64,000 nt of DNA, taken from Exiguobacterium sp. FSL W8-0210. GTDB taxonomy: Bacteria; Bacillota; Bacilli; Exiguobacteriales; Exiguobacteriaceae. The translations under genes and the position numbers were made by a program. Below, one piece after another: positions 2-38,035 of the stretch. The notes under the pieces are model-generated. The model searched no databases. It was not told the DNA's origin and saw only the letters and a list, made by a program, of their open reading frames with translations. Position 1 is the stretch's first letter, and each line of letters starts with the position of its first letter. The stretch spans positions 3,017,001 through 3,081,000 of the forward strand of contig NZ_JBBOUK010000001.1 of NCBI RefSeq assembly GCF_038006045.1, read 5' to 3'.

Positions 2-2545
2 TTGGATAGTGCTATTGTTGGCTCCTCTAATTTATCAAAGTCGGCTTTAACACACGGTATGGAATGGAACATTCGTATACCTTCTACACCCGTCACAACA
101 TTAGTCACTCAAGCGAAAAGCTTGTTTGAACAGCTTTGGAACAGCCACGAAGCGACTGTATGTACAGAAGAATTATTACTTCAATACGAACAGTACCAAC
201 AAGAAACACCACCTATAAAATCATTTTCTATCCGCGATACAATTGCCGAACCCGCTGTCGATTACACCGTTATTGAACCAAACCTCATGCAGATTCCGGC
301 TTTAGAAGAACTGGATCGTTTGCGCGAGCGAAAAGAAACAAAAGCAATGGTCATTGCGGCAACAGGAACGGGGAAAACGTACTTAGCAGCATTTGATGTT
401 CGTCAAGCTCAGGCTAAAAAAGTGTTATTTGTTGCACATCGCGGAAAATTGCTATCACAAGCTGAGCATACATTTAGACAAGTTTTTTCAAATGAAAGTT
501 ATACATTTGGTAGATATTCAGGATCACAACAAATTCAAGATGCACAATTTACCTTCGCTACCGTTCAAACACTCTCAAAAGAGGTTCATCTTAATCAATT
601 TTTAAAGGATACGTTTGACTACATCATCATTGATGAATTCCATCATGCTTCATCTGCTTCTTACCAAAACATTCTTAACTATTTTAAGCCCCAATTTTTG
701 CTTGGCGTAACGGCAACACCAGAACGAATGGATGGTCAAAATATCTTTCAGCTTGTTGACTATAATGTTGCTTACGAAGTACGTCTGTATGATGCCTTAG
801 CACAAGATTTACTTTCACCATTCCATTATTTTGGGATTCAAGATGATGAATCGATTGATTATTCTCTTATTCCTCAACAAAACGGATTTTATGTAGAACA
901 AGATCTTGTTGTTGCACTCGAACGATCAACACGAACAGATTATATTGTTGAAATGATTCGTAAATTTGGGTTCAGTGGTAATCAGGCTGTTGGACTAGGA
1001 TTCTGCGTCAATATTAATCATGCAGAGTTTATGGAGCAGGAATTTAAACGACATCAGATTGAAGCAATGGCTGTTACAAGTAAACAGTCCGAAGATGAAC
1101 GCGAAGAGGCCATTCGCCGACTAGAGGACGATCAAGATCCACTGCAATATATTTTTACAGTTGACTTGTTTAACGAAGGCGTCGATATTCCAAAAGTCAA
1201 TCTAATGCTATTTTTACGTCCAACGGAGTCTCCTACTATTTTTATTCAACAATTGGGGAGAGGCTTACGTAAACATAGCTCAAAAGAATTTGTTACGATT
1301 TTAGATTTTATCGGAAATAGCCAAAAGGCTTTTGTTGCACCGCTTGTGTTGTCTGGTCAACAATCGTTTCATTCTATTGATCGTTATAAAATTGCTACTG
1401 CTGTAAAACAGCATTTTCCGATTTTACCGGAAGGATCTTTAGCCATTCTAGATTCAATTACAGAAAGATTTATTATTGAACAAATGAAAAAAATAGAGTT
1501 TTCAGCTAGCAAACAGCTCCGTGAAAGTTATCAAAGGCTGACACGCATGATCGGAAATCCTCCGAGTTTAAATGATTTAGTTACGCATAAAGACGCACCA
1601 GCTATTGAAAGTATTGTTCAGCAATGGAGAAGTACATTACGTCTTAAACAACTTGAAAAACATGCTACCGACGAAGAACTACGTTTATTGCTCGATGACA
1701 CTACACGCAAAATTGTGGAACAGCTCGAAGGACTATTCCCAATTCGTGAGCCCTTCAGCTTACTGATTTTAAAACATTTACTGCATCATCCTTCTGCTTC
1801 AGTTCAAGATATTGAACAAGAAGTTTTCAAAGAATTCGCCTTATCGACGAATCACTCTTTCTCAAAGCGACCTATTATTCATCATCTTTTTAAACGCTGG
1901 TCTACTGCGTTTAAAAATGATCGTATTCAATTGCTAGATGCTGTATCAAAAGAGCGCTATCGCTTTTCAAATACAGTCGGCCAAGCACTTCAACAATCAA
2001 CTGAATTACGTTCATATATGATACATTTTATCCAAGCAGGTCTACTTGCATTTCATCAACTACCAGATCGAATCAACTGGTTGATCGAAGACCAGGCGTT
2101 TCTATTACATCAAACATACAATCGTTCTGTTATCCAACGTCTTCTTTGTTCACCAAGTCAGGAAGGTTCTTGGCGTGAGGGCGTAGCTCAAGCTGGTGAC
2201 GACTACATTTTATTCGTGAATTTACACAAAGATGAAGCCATTGATGAGCAACTAAAATATAACGATTATTTCTTAGATCAATATCGTTTCCACTGGCAGT
2301 CTCAAAGTAATGCAACTGCTACAGGTAAAGCGGGTACTTTATATCAAAACCATGAGAGCGAAGGAATTCGTATTCATTTGTTTATGCGTAAAGCAGATAA
2401 AGAACAAGGAAAAACGCTACCGTTCACATACTTTGGCCAGTTAAAGCATCTTCAAAGTACAGGTTCTAAACCGATTAGTGTGACTTGGTCACTTCATTCT
2501 CCACTATCAATTGAACTGTTTAAGGAGTGGCAAACTCTTTCTTAA
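2..2545 (+). CDS. PLD-like nuclease / SF2 DEAD-DEAH helicase / DUF3427 protein, 5'-truncated by window edge
   Basis: 847 residues are visible and the true start lies left of the window. The first ~30 residues (VGSSNLSKSAL, then N and E) match the C-terminal half of a phospholipase-D-type nuclease site. An SF2 helicase core follows: Walker A AATGTGKT at about 119-126, DEFHH (motif II) at 211-215, TATP (motif III) at 237-240 and QQLGRGLRK (motif VI) at 416-424. The last ~300 residues resemble DUF3427. Such PLD-helicase-DUF3427 proteins are predicted DNA-processing or defence enzymes; the exact role here is unknown. Base composition is clearly more AT-rich than the genes right of 4.7 kb, which suggests acquisition. 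It overlaps the convergent Nudix gene by 26 bp. Confidence 0.85.
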   Translation: MDSAIVGSSNLSKSALTHGMEWNIRIPSTPVTTLVTQAKSLFEQLWNSHEATVCTEELLLQYEQYQQETPPIKSFSIRDTIAEPAVDYTVIEPNLMQIPALEELDRLRERKETKAMVIAATGTGKTYLAAFDVRQAQAKKVLFVAHRGKLLSQAEHTFRQVFSNESYTFGRYSGSQQIQDAQFTFATVQTLSKEVHLNQFLKDTFDYIIIDEFHHASSASYQNILNYFKPQFLLGVTATPERMDGQNIFQLVDYNVAYEVRLYDALAQDLLSPFHYFGIQDDESIDYSLIPQQNGFYVEQDLVVALERSTRTDYIVEMIRKFGFSGNQAVGLGFCVNINHAEFMEQEFKRHQIEAMAVTSKQSEDEREEAIRRLEDDQDPLQYIFTVDLFNEGVDIPKVNLMLFLRPTESPTIFIQQLGRGLRKHSSKEFVTILDFIGNSQKAFVAPLVLSGQQSFHSIDRYKIATAVKQHFPILPEGSLAILDSITERFIIEQMKKIEFSASKQLRESYQRLTRMIGNPPSLNDLVTHKDAPAIESIVQQWRSTLRLKQLEKHATDEELRLLLDDTTRKIVEQLEGLFPIREPFSLLILKHLLHHPSASVQDIEQEVFKEFALSTNHSFSKRPIIHHLFKRWSTAFKNDRIQLLDAVSKERYRFSNTVGQALQQSTELRSYMIHFIQAGLLAFHQLPDRINWLIEDQAFLLHQTYNRSVIQRLLCSPSQEGSWREGVAQAGDDYILFVNLHKDEAIDEQLKYNDYFLDQYRFHWQSQSNATATGKAGTLYQNHESEGIRIHLFMRKADKEQGKTLPFTYFGQLKHLQSTGSKPISVTWSLHSPLSIELFKEWQTLS

Positions 2546-2924
2546 TGTACTCAACTGCAGGAATATCAGCAGGAGCCCATTCAAGCTGATCAAGGTCTGA
2601 AACAGATACCCAGCGAAGCTCTGCATGTTCTACGGCAATCGGTTCTCCTGTTACGATTTCAGCTTCAAACGTATGCAATGTAACAATAATAGCATCGTAC
2701 TCGTACGTCGTTTTTTCAATTGGTTGTTTGACCTTAATATTACATTTTAATTCTTCATTGATCTCGCGAACTAAAGACTGTGAAGGCGTTTCATGTAGCT
2801 CAATTTTCCCACCAGGAAACTCCCATAAGTTGGGCAATGACATTTGGCTACTACGAAGTGCACACAATATTTCATTATGATCGTTGCGAATGACAGCCCC
2901 TACGACTTGAACATGTTTTTTCAT
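2520..2924 (-). CDS. MutT-type Nudix hydrolase (8-oxo-dGTP diphosphatase-like)
   Basis: 134 residues, a complete Nudix domain. The Nudix box is intact: GG at the start of the box, then REINEEL, so the metal-binding glutamates are present. Small single-domain proteins of this kind sanitise oxidised nucleotides such as 8-oxo-dGTP; the substrate here is inferred from the MutT-like size and sequence. The gene is convergent with, and its 3' end overlaps, the DUF3427 helicase gene. Both share the AT-rich composition of this patch. The overlap suggests the two genes were inherited as a unit. The spacing to the IS left end is only about 85 bp. Confidence 0.85.
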   Translation of the reverse strand: MKKHVQVVGAVIRNDHNEILCALRSSQMSLPNLWEFPGGKIELHETPSQSLVREINEELKCNIKVKQPIEKTTYEYDAIIVTLHTFEAEIVTGEPIAVEHAELRWVSVSDLDQLEWAPADIPAVEYIKKEFATP

Positions 2925-3075
2925 TTTTTATGTTTCACTCCAAATCATTATAGATTTTTCAGTTCTCTGCTTATCATAACAAAAACCGTTATTCCTTTGA
3001 CTTATGATATGCTCCCCAAAAAGTAGACAGTTGAAATAACAAAAACTGTTTACTTTTTTGAAGGGAGCTTTTTCT

Positions 3076-3753
3076 ATGACTACATCTAAGTTTTCGTCAG
3101 ATGAAAAACTAAGAATCATTAAGATGTGTGAAGACGGAATCGACTCGATCAAATCGATTGCCTCGCTCTTCGAGCTTTCAGTCAGCACCTTAAATAGATG
3201 GAGGATAAAATATCGTACGGGCGGCTCCATAGCACTTCGTAATCGAACAGAGTGGACGCGTTATCCGGAAGAACTGAAGATGGAGGCTATACGTGCAGTA
3301 CTCGACCAAAAGGAATCGCTTATTAGCGCTACGGCACGGTTTGATATCTCGGATAAAGGTCTACTTGCGAAGTGGATAGAGAAGTATACTAGTCATAGTA
3401 CTAAAGGGAAACCATTGAAGGAGCGATCCATTATGACTAGAGGTAGAACCACCACATTCGAAGAACGTGTTCAGGCAGTTATGGACTGTATACAAAGCGG
3501 AAAAGACTATCAACGCATCATGGAGACCCATCGGGTCTCATACCAACAAATCTATAGTTGGGTAAGAAAGTTCGAGAAGGACGGAATCGACGCACTGATG
3601 GACCGTCGCGGGCGTCAGAAGCCAGTAGAAGAATTGACGGATGAAGAACGTTTGGCGTTAGAGCTGAAACGACTCGAGCGAGAAAATGAGCGTCTACGCA
3701 TGGAGAATGATTTCTTAAAAAAGTTAGAGGAGATCGAGAGGAGGTCACGTTAA
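3076..3753 (+). CDS. IS3-family transposase OrfA (DNA-binding subunit)
   Basis: 225 residues from ATG 3076, preceded by GAAGGGAG; an upstream TTG at 3058 is less likely. Two helix-turn-helix segments are visible, one near residues 10-60 and a second in the region after 120. A C-terminal heptad-rich leucine zipper (ELKRLERENERLRMENDFLK) follows, as usual for OrfA. OrfA is longer than the ~100-170 residues of most IS3 elements because of the duplicated HTH. The sequence A AAA AAG at 3717-3723 is in the zero-frame phase for -1 slippage into OrfB. Confidence 0.92.
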   Translation: MTTSKFSSDEKLRIIKMCEDGIDSIKSIASLFELSVSTLNRWRIKYRTGGSIALRNRTEWTRYPEELKMEAIRAVLDQKESLISATARFDISDKGLLAKWIEKYTSHSTKGKPLKERSIMTRGRTTTFEERVQAVMDCIQSGKDYQRIMETHRVSYQQIYSWVRKFEKDGIDALMDRRGRQKPVEELTDEERLALELKRLERENERLRMENDFLKKLEEIERRSR

Positions 3754-4637
3754 GTCAAATTCGTCTTCAAGATAAATATGAAGCCATCCAATCATCGGTA
3801 GAGCAATTTGGTTACCCGATCATCGCCCTATGTCACCTCGCTGGTGTCTCGCGCGCTGCCTACTACAAGTGGTTACGCCGGATTGGCATACCGCAGACAC
3901 GTGAAACGGAGAACATGAAAATCATCGAAGAGATGAACGAGATCCACCTTGCGGTGAACGGAATTTATGGCTACCGACGGATGACATTGAACCTGAAACG
4001 CCGTTTCGGAAGAAACGTCAACGCGAAGCGTGTCCGTCGTCTGATGCATATCGCCGGTATTCATTGCGTCATACGCCGGAAACGTCCTTTGTATATTCGT
4101 AATCGCCCTCAACAGACCGCAGAGAACATTCTGAACCGTGATTTCAACGCGGCAGGACCGAACCAAAAATGGGTGACGGATGTCACGGAACTGAAGTACG
4201 GCGCCTCTCAGAAGGCATATTTGAGCGCCATACTAGACCTATATGATGGATCCATCCGTGCCTTCGTTCTTGGGCACTCCAATAATAATCAGCTCGTGTT
4301 CGATACTCTCGAACTCGCCCTACAGGGCGCACCGGGAAGTCGTCCCTTGCTTCATAGTGATCGAGGATTTCAATATACGTCTCATGCGTTTCGTCATATG
4401 ACACGCGTGGCAGGCATTACACAAAGCATGTCTCGGGTTGGAAGATGTATTGATAACGGACCGATGGAGTCTTTTTGGGGAGCGTTGAAGTGCGAAAGTT
4501 ATTATCTACATAAGTTTGTGGAGTTCGACGAACTCCGACTCGCAATCCAGAAATATATTCACTTCTATAATGAAGAACGGTACCAACAACGGTTAAACGG
4601 CTTGGCTCCGTTAGAATACAGAGCTCAAGCCGTTTAA
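3723..4637 (+). CDS. IS3-family transposase OrfB (DDE catalytic part), made by -1 frameshift
   Basis: The OrfB frame is open from before 3723 and has no good ATG or RBS until 3915. The first ATG would remove part of the conserved N-terminal HTH_21 region (EAIQSSVEQFGYPI onward). Production as an OrfAB fusion after slippage at 3717-3723 is therefore likely. The rve integrase core is complete: first Asp in WVTDVTELK, second Asp in LHSDRGFQYTS, Glu in NGPMESFWGALK. The C-terminal YNEERYQQRLNGLAPLEYR motif typical of the family is also present. Confidence 0.93.
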   Translation, partial: VRGDREEVTLSQIRLQDKYEAIQSSVEQFGYPIIALCHLAGVSRAAYYKWLRRIGIPQTRETENMKIIEEMNEIHLAVNGIYGYRRMTLNLKRRFGRNVNAKRVRRLMHIAGIHCVIRRKRPLYIRNRPQQTAENILNRDFNAAGPNQKWVTDVTELKYGASQKAYLSAILDLYDGSIRAFVLGHSNNNQLVFDTLELALQGAPGSRPLLHSDRGFQYTSHAFRHMTRVAGITQSMSRVGRCIDNGPMESFWGALKCESYYLHKFVEFDELRLAIQKYIHFYNEERYQQRLNGLAPLEYRAQAV

Positions 4638-4714
4638 GAGATTTTTATTATTTGTCCTGTCTACTTGACAGGGAGCAGTTCATTATGCAAAGAATAGCGG
4701 TTTTATTATATCCA

Positions 4715-4768
4715 GTTATCCACATGTGGATAACCCCATTTATGGTATACTTATGGCACTTATCCACA
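4715..4768. promoter_or_regulatory. Cluster of three perfect DnaA boxes
   Basis: TTATCCACA occurs at 4716-4724. Its inverted copy TGTGGATAA abuts it at 4725-4733, making the 20-bp perfect palindrome 4715-4734. A third TTATCCACA lies at 4760-4768. All three match the consensus exactly. They sit between the IS right end and the RBS of the downstream rRNA methyltransferase. They could control that gene or titrate DnaA. No dnaA/dnaN genes are nearby, so this is not evidence of oriC. Confidence 0.75.
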
Positions 4769-4789
4769 AGTAGAAATGAGGAAACTAAC

Positions 4790-5974
4790 ATGTCTCGTGA
4801 ACTTTATCCGATTGTCGTCAAACCAAAATGGATTGAATCGATTCGAAGCGGGTATCCCGCCTTACGCAAGGAAATGTTCGAAGCTTTGCACCATGTCAAA
4901 GAGGCAGGCGGACTGCTTCATCTGATGACAGAACATAAAGAATACCTCGCGACCGGTTATTTTGGCAAGCAGGAAAAAGGTGTCGGTTGGACTCTCTCAA
5001 TGGACGAGCAAGAAGCGATTGATGTCGCCTTCTTCAAACAACTTTTTGAAAAAGCGTTAGACAAACGAAATGAATTTTTTGAAGAGTATTCAGAAGCCTT
5101 CCGTATCTTTAACGGTGCAGGAGATGGTATTGGTGGTTTGACGATTGACTGTTATGATCATCATTACCTCATTACATTCGAAAATGAAGGCATCTATACA
5201 TTCCGCCCACTGATTCTTGAAGCTCTTGAATCACTACTGAATTATAGAAGCATTTATGAAAAACGAGACTTCCTCGTCGATCTTCAACCGGTCAAAGGCG
5301 ACGACTTTTTGAAGGGCGAACGAGGCGATTTTCCTGAAGTCGCACAAGAATATGGCGTGTTGTATGAATATGACTTGGATGCTGGTATGCGGACTGGTTT
5401 TGACATTGCCCAACGTGAACTTCGCCGAATCCTTCTCGATTCCGTCGAACGAAAGACCGTACTTAACCTCTTTTCCGATACAGGAACGTTAACGGTAGCT
5501 GTTCTTTATGGTGAAGCTGCTCGAACGACAAGCGTTGATTTCTCGACACGTAGTCGAAATAAGACAAAAGATAATCTAATGTTGAACAGTTTTACTCCCG
5601 AAAAACAGAAGATTTTAGTTCAGGATGCGTTCGACTACATCGAACAAGCGGATAAGAAGACTCGTTTTGACGTCGTCTTGTTCCATCCACCCGTACAAGT
5701 CAATACACGGACACGTCAGTTTCGGACGGAACAGGATCTCGCCCTTTGGATCCAAAAAGTCATTCATCTGACGAATCGTGGAGGACTGCTTGCGATTACG
5801 ACAGATAGTCCTGCTCTTGATGCATCACAATTGAAAAAAGCTGTCGAGCAAGCATTCAACAAGTTGCGTCAAAAATTCGAAGTCGTGTGGGAGCAACCGG
5901 AGCAGAAAGATTTCCCGACTCCTCCTTCCATGCCACAACTCGCTCCAAAAAGCATTCTTGTTCGCCGTAAATGA
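4790..5974 (+). CDS. Class I SAM-dependent rRNA methyltransferase, RlmI/YwbD-like
   Basis: 394 residues from ATG 4790, which follows GAGGAAAC; the frame stays open upstream, but that sequence reads through the DnaA boxes and is unlikely to be translated. An N-terminal PUA-like RNA-binding region is followed by a Rossmann methyltransferase domain. Motif I reads LNLFSDTGTLTVA, and a FHPPVQ motif stands where the family normally has a DPP-type motif. The family methylates a cytosine C5 in 23S rRNA (RlmI in E. coli); target identity here is inferred. Monocistronic, ending at a bidirectional terminator. Confidence 0.8.
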   Translation: MSRELYPIVVKPKWIESIRSGYPALRKEMFEALHHVKEAGGLLHLMTEHKEYLATGYFGKQEKGVGWTLSMDEQEAIDVAFFKQLFEKALDKRNEFFEEYSEAFRIFNGAGDGIGGLTIDCYDHHYLITFENEGIYTFRPLILEALESLLNYRSIYEKRDFLVDLQPVKGDDFLKGERGDFPEVAQEYGVLYEYDLDAGMRTGFDIAQRELRRILLDSVERKTVLNLFSDTGTLTVAVLYGEAARTTSVDFSTRSRNKTKDNLMLNSFTPEKQKILVQDAFDYIEQADKKTRFDVVLFHPPVQVNTRTRQFRTEQDLALWIQKVIHLTNRGGLLAITTDSPALDASQLKKAVEQAFNKLRQKFEVVWEQPEQKDFPTPPSMPQLAPKSILVRRK

Positions 5975-38026: not shown

Positions 38027-38035
38027 TTATCCACA
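38027..38035 (+). promoter_or_regulatory. Single perfect DnaA box
   Basis: TTATCCACA in the leader of the MarR gene, 51 bp before its start. A lone box may be chance; noted because the three-box cluster occurs at 4.7 kb. Confidence 0.35.

Follow-up and report, generated by a model that had tools for sequence, protein, structure and literature searches.

A genus-wide DnaA-box element in Exiguobacterium, probably a DnaA-controlled promoter of an RlmI-like methyltransferase gene

What role could three perfect DnaA boxes play when they lie within 53 bp of one another, outside oriC and in the leader of a methyltransferase gene of Exiguobacterium sp. FSL W8-0210? The stretch of DNA analysed here (the window; 64 kb) covers positions 3,017,001-3,081,000 of a 3,112,010-bp contig that begins at dnaA. 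An earlier note on this DNA had proposed either a DnaA-titration locus or a DnaA-controlled promoter, a proposal that comparative evidence supports, with the promoter favoured. Judged from sequence comparison, the element is probably a DnaA-controlled promoter of the RlmI-like gene and at once an oriC-proximal DnaA-box cluster. Its parts are as follows:

4716-4724, forward strand: DnaA box 1, exact TTATCCACA, left half of a 20-bp palindrome (4715-4734), conserved in the genus
4725-4733, reverse strand: DnaA box 2, exact, abutting box 1 in inverted orientation; differs by one base in G006 and by another in G008 and G016
4743-4751, forward strand: putative extended -10 element TGGTATACT, TGnTATAMT in the genus, its offset from the palindrome identical in all 19 genomes
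4760-4768, forward strand: DnaA box 3, exact, as in all 19 genomes, each time at 44 bp from box 1; predicted at about +1 to +10 of the transcript
4778-4783, forward strand: Shine-Dalgarno-like GAGGAA, read in the sequence
4790-5974, forward strand: RlmI-like methyltransferase gene, 394 amino acids, with PUA_3 and Methyltrans_SAM domains above the Pfam cut-offs

The cluster thus spans 4716-4768 with a gap of 26 bp between boxes 2 and 3, and both the palindrome with its trailing third box and the placement in the leader of an RlmI-like gene are as first described. The element sits at contig position 3,021,716; with dnaA at the start of the contig, this places it some 90 kb left of that gene (2.9% of the chromosome). 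The earlier description 'away from any oriC genes' therefore holds in that none is adjacent, but not in that dnaA is just ~90 kb off; three exact boxes within 53 bp, outside oriC and at this distance from dnaA, make up an extra-oriC cluster. The distance was ~90-104 kb in six Exiguobacterium genomes, as estimated with the dnaA start inferred from the box pattern (G002 and G004) or the contig end taken as oriC (G001, G003 and G005). Close relatives in named records belonged to Exiguobacterium at 10 of 10 loci.

The DnaA protein of this genome matched the solved structure 8btg (646 bits), which we take to be B. subtilis DnaA, and the recognition part of domain IV is nearly identical, so the same 9-mer should be bound by Exiguobacterium DnaA. 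Nine more matches to the DnaA AAA+ family, several with equal scores, were found in the same genome (contig 1 at 149702, 169975, 2237531, 2432082, 2687368, 2689017 and 2695378; contig 2 at 114354 and 117535); these are probably repeated transposon-type ATPases of the IstB/DnaC kind and not second DnaA genes.

Perfect boxes occur four times in the window (the fourth at 38027-38035), and 100 dinucleotide-preserving shuffles of the window gave 0.42 matches on average, none reaching four. The relaxed consensus TTWTNCACA matched eight times against a shuffle mean of 5.1, an unremarkable total reached by 13 of the 100 shuffles, so the signal lies in the clustering of perfect boxes. The genome-wide count of clusters, suggested in the earlier note as a check, gave 36 perfect boxes versus 10 for a reversed control pattern. 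By our grouping, 24 of the 36 fall into five clusters, two of which constitute oriC (eight boxes on its rpmH-dnaA side and five between dnaA and dnaN), the others being at rlmH/htrA (four), at a CshA-like DEAD-box helicase gene (four) and at the methyltransferase site (three); 12 are singletons. The rlmH gene was identified by a curated model. Equally tight triples are expected by chance at only ~1e-7 to 4e-6 per genome; the exact matches and the shuffle statistics agree with the original claim that three such boxes are unlikely to arise by chance. The box at 38027, singled out before as a further perfect box ahead of a MarR gene, is indeed exact, follows a TTGACA hexamer closely in the leader of a MarR-type gene and is common to three close relatives (G001-G003), where the sequence is 93-98% identical anyway; it is not distinguishable from background singletons and makes a weak signal, since the 12 singletons hardly exceed the 10 matches of the control. 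Between the RlmI-like and rlmH-type clusters of G004, no perfect box was found among those listed. The helicase leader (contig 1, 2996339-2996459; also L122, L124 and L126) is packed with DnaA boxes, flanked by a -10-like element on one side and the ribosome site on the other, and their spacing is kept in G001 and G004.

The product of the downstream gene combines a PUA-like domain (PF17785, 44.3 bits; cut-off 22.6) with a SAM-methyltransferase domain (PF10672, 54.3 bits; cut-off 27). It scored 110 bits against the curated RlmI equivalog NF011707 (cut-off 712) and 115 bits against the best curated model, NF033380 (cut-off 650). We therefore use the name RlmI-like only, the full identity of RlmI (23S rRNA C1962 methyltransferase) being rejected on the equivalog cut-off; the protein probably methylates rRNA.

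The earlier note had named absence of the boxes from relatives with the same gene order as a refutation, and the comparison did not bear this out. The element was found ahead of the RlmI-like gene in all 19 genomes of the genus, each of which encodes the methyltransferase at 54-98% protein identity to the window copy, and the palindrome (with up to two mismatches) occurred in one place only per genome, always directly ahead of this gene. In the aligned leaders, 25 of 27 box columns were invariant versus 9 of 26 in the spacer (19 genomes), the two variable box columns each reflecting a single-base difference, one confined to G006 and the other to G008 and G016, and the 44-bp spacing from palindrome to box 3 was the same in 19 of 19. 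Box bases shared with the window numbered 27/27 in G005 and G013 and 26/27 in G008 and G006; four-fold synonymous sites of the gene agreed at 42/103, 49/100, 42/103 and 34/98, respectively (35-49%). The straightforward reading of these alignments is that selection acts on the boxes and their spacing. An extra exact box lies 45-50 bp upstream in 8 of the 19 leaders.

Between boxes 2 and 3, TGnTATA(A/C)T was found at the same offset in all 19 genomes, and AATGAGG precedes the start codon in the leader alignment (with a single-base change in G006). No promoter was returned by a consensus scan that required a -35 element, and no -35 hexamer is recognisable at the site, so we infer the promoter and its start site from conservation. 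By usual promoter geometry transcription would start near 4758, and the inverted pair would therefore cover about -43 to -26 while box 3 would begin at about +1. The boxes thus flank the putative extended -10 element in fixed geometry in 19 of 19 genomes, overlapping the promoter as at DnaA-repressed promoters, and this layout suits a promoter predicted to be occluded by DnaA. The leader is non-coding, because the distance from box 3 to the start codon shifts by one base between clades (30 nt in six genomes, 29 nt in thirteen) and an in-frame stop lies between palindrome and start codon in 14 of the 19. A TTG-started 440-amino-acid frame in the window, which would place the boxes inside a longer coding frame, stays open in this genome and four others and was rejected on the change in spacer length and the in-frame stops.

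The -35 side would be covered by DnaA on the inverted pair and the start of the transcribed region by DnaA on box 3, which would block access to the extended -10 promoter and keep the gene repressed. Relief would come at times of low free DnaA, either through titration or shortly after duplication of the origin region. Lying ~90 kb from oriC, the three boxes would in addition sequester some DnaA at an early stage of the replication cycle. DnaA binding, repression and any effect on initiation are predicted from the layout, and DnaA could activate instead.

The strongest alternative is that the element serves primarily as a DnaA titration site for replication timing and that its location at a promoter is incidental, which we regard as unlikely. 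The distance of ~90-104 kb from oriC in six genomes fits such a role, as does B. subtilis, where, according to the portions of the literature available to us, a strain without the six extra-oriC clusters initiates early and one cluster reinserted at various places relieves this partly. A sink, however, needs no exact spacing around a -10 element, yet the spacing is kept in 19 of 19 genomes; the element holds only three of the 24 clustered perfect boxes; and ~10-fold DnaA overproduction caused no over-initiation in B. subtilis (PMC13220808, in the part accessible to us). The sister genus also speaks against it. Both the methyltransferase gene and the exact palindrome were missing from all 19 of its genomes, the search there covering the exact palindrome only. 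Single boxes were sought in four of these genomes, which carried oriC-like clusters plus others; those fetched from G187 lay by an ORF reading like RlmH, before a DegV-family gene, and between an HxlR regulator and an S66 peptidase gene, and a locus similar to the DegV-family cluster is present in G323. DnaA-box clusters thus appear to be gained and lost along with genes; this argues for gene control rather than a mere sink and suggests that clusters are tied to their gene, not only to chromosomal distance. Given the fixed geometry around a conserved -10 element and the joint absence of gene and palindrome from the sister genus, we favour DnaA control of the promoter, with titration as a likely secondary effect.

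It is far less probable that a regulator other than DnaA, with the same 9-mer specificity, binds here. A palindrome is typical of dimeric repressors, but the third box stands alone as one direct half, the oriC of this genome is built from the identical 9-mer (13 exact boxes), and other Bacilli have the same palindrome ahead of mnmE and in the dnaA-dnaN region.

The left flank brings in a still less credible reading, in which the palindrome would be retained as a target for recombination or insertion at the border of a hotspot that takes up defence genes. This flank was exchanged in three of the 10 relatives examined, all 10 of which kept the boxes and the methyltransferase gene. In seven, as in the window, it holds a NUDIX gene and a type IV restriction-like PLD-helicase gene; in G011 and G006 it holds a cytosine methylase along with other restriction-type genes, and in G018 another methylase and a restriction enzyme. 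Besides this difference in restriction-type genes, the similarity of G011 to its relatives begins just a few bases left of the palindrome, as a hotspot edge would have it. In a distant clade, however, leader similarity reaches further left, to the upstream box, and box 3 and the -10 element, on the unchanged side, are equally conserved. As to the flank itself, window positions 2-2924 (and L107, L110, L111 and L113) form a variable site for restriction-type genes, the type IV-like PLD-helicase gene is full length in G001 (L107), and in most of the relatives inspected the NUDIX gene matches the PADLOC candidate PDC-S07. A chance origin from common 9-mers, with ~10 perfect boxes per genome predicted by the reversed-pattern control, can be dismissed on the shuffles, that same control, fewer than 1e-5 expected triples per genome and 19 of 19 conservation across large synonymous divergence.

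The flank of the window copy is further marked by a mobile element:

3010-4677, forward strand: IS3-family insertion with two transposase frames, ends TGCTCCC/GGGAGCA, the second frame above the IS3 transposase cut-off

The site had been described as directly beside an IS end, which is true of this genome only. The comparison with relatives lacking the IS, another check named at the outset, found no IS end in the 18 other leaders (aligned over 160 bp) and the boxes in all of them; a link to the IS is unsupported, and a site created or carried by it is rejected. The uninterrupted insertion site was read in G001, G003 and G012, and the IS looks recent and incidental to the element. Its insertion interrupts a conserved terminator-like hairpin ahead of the methyltransferase gene (window 2970-3010 and 4678-4710), which folds strongly when unsplit in G001 (z -5.3), and transcription reading through into the element may therefore be altered in this strain.

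Across the class, the exact palindrome was detected in 43 of 398 sampled Bacilli genomes, 16 of the 43 in Exiguobacterium. At 20 palindrome loci of other genera no methyltransferase match was obtained among the six longest ORFs per locus; by our reading, seven of these loci lie ahead of mnmE, and no fewer than five belong to the dnaA-dnaN region. We then considered box pairs irrespective of this palindrome. In a first set of 71 genomes, inverted pairs were sought and all 54 loci outside Exiguobacterium fetched, of which 23 were oriC loci (22 tagged by BLAST, and L138, at a contig end after rnpA, counted by hand). The 31 left included tsaC (nine, one by similarity), tsaD (five), rlmH (three) and mnmE (one), i.e. 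18 of 31. A second set of 36 other genomes, hand-picked for variety, gave 61 loci with same-direction pairs, eight of them oriC, and 27 of the remaining 53 lay beside tsaD (11), rlmH (nine), tsaC (four) or mnmE (three), 'beside' meaning a tblastn match within the 3-kb locus; these 36 genomes were also part of the 398-genome search, and G166, G229 and G263 each had one locus viewed earlier. Where coordinates were read for tsaD loci, the cluster was on the 3' side (at a distance of ~0.9-1.1 kb in L245 and L222). With the reversed control pattern, hardly any pairs turned up in the two sets. Other or unidentified neighbours accounted for 13 of 31 and 26 of 53 loci, e.g. aspS, guaB, hpf, citrate synthase, transporters and repeated elements, the names guaB, lysS and a second aspS being our protein readings and not model matches. 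Because loci are shared among the genomes by descent, they do not count as independent, and we claim no P-value. A DnaA-box cluster lies ~80 and 570 bp from a ribosome hibernation factor gene (S30AE) in two other families of Bacilli (L165 and L232).

The tsaC, tsaD, rlmH and mnmE loci largely match those known in B. subtilis (ywlC, gcp, yydA, which we take to be rlmH, and trmE). Tentatively, the extra-oriC clusters of Bacilli may make up a regulon that changes slowly and centres on RNA modification and ribosome maturation, coupling the level or activity of DnaA to the quality of the translation apparatus while lineages swap the gene that carries the site; its members would be tsaC, tsaD, rlmH and mnmE and, in Exiguobacterium, the RlmI-like methyltransferase and the DEAD-box RNA helicase. 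We hold this to be possible rather than probable, since the theme is partly post hoc (it emerged once set one and the B. subtilis list had been seen), the genomes are related and close to half of the loci have neighbours that are unidentified or are not among these genes. Within such a regulon, Exiguobacterium would exemplify recruitment. In the genome of the window no perfect box lies within 30 kb of tsaC or tsaD, nor before mnmE, where one lies only inside the gene; with clusters missing at these genes and present at the RlmI-like gene and the helicase gene, the element looks like the lineage's own recruit. If the regulon exists, DnaA in Bacilli would be systematically linked to genes modifying tRNA and rRNA, and replication capacity thereby to translation capacity. 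No statement of RNA modification as a common theme of DnaA-box loci was found in the accessible portions of the open-licence literature, including PMC3814617, PMC4447404 and PMC8203912, and the main text of PMC4447404 contains no word beginning tRNA or rRNA. Among the matches listed from this literature, no paper title concerned Exiguobacterium DnaA boxes.

Among known systems, E. coli datA and DARS are likewise chromosomal DnaA-box loci outside oriC that tune DnaA, but what they change is the nucleotide state of DnaA, in the case of datA together with IHF (from the available parts of PMC5295017 and PMC13220808). B. subtilis has neither IHF nor datA/DARS loci (PMC13220808, as far as its accessible text goes), and nothing points to a mechanism of this type at the Exiguobacterium element. 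The mnmE palindrome of other Bacilli (e.g. L144, from G077) is the same 18-bp TTATCCACATGTGGATAA, directly before an RNA-modification gene, although the gene differs and L144 is without an exact third box. DnaA-repressed promoters of B. subtilis (ywlC, vpr, yyzF-yydD, trmE-noc and ywcI-sacT) similarly have boxes at a gene promoter, and several of the genes modify RNA; the gene in Exiguobacterium is another one and its repression only predicted.

The nearest counterparts are the six extra-oriC DnaA-box clusters of B. subtilis (Okumura et al. 2012, via the parts of PMC5295017 and PMC13220808 available to us), from which DnaA also regulates genes, as far as the same sources go. They share with the present element several boxes in a short non-oriC stretch on the oriC-near part of the chromosome, and this genome also carries a cluster at rlmH, one of the B. 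subtilis loci. They differ in density, with 4-11 predicted sites per 300 bp at the eight strongest regions, scored by matrix, versus three exact boxes here (Table 1 of PMC4447404), and the RlmI-like gene is not among the loci named in the portion of PMC4447404 at hand. Three compact extra-oriC clusters would make Exiguobacterium a simple system for telling titration from gene control. The RlmI-like gene appears to be a new gene with this kind of site and the element a lineage-specific member of the B. subtilis type of extra-oriC cluster, which adds a strongly conserved, probable DnaA target beyond the Bacillus model.
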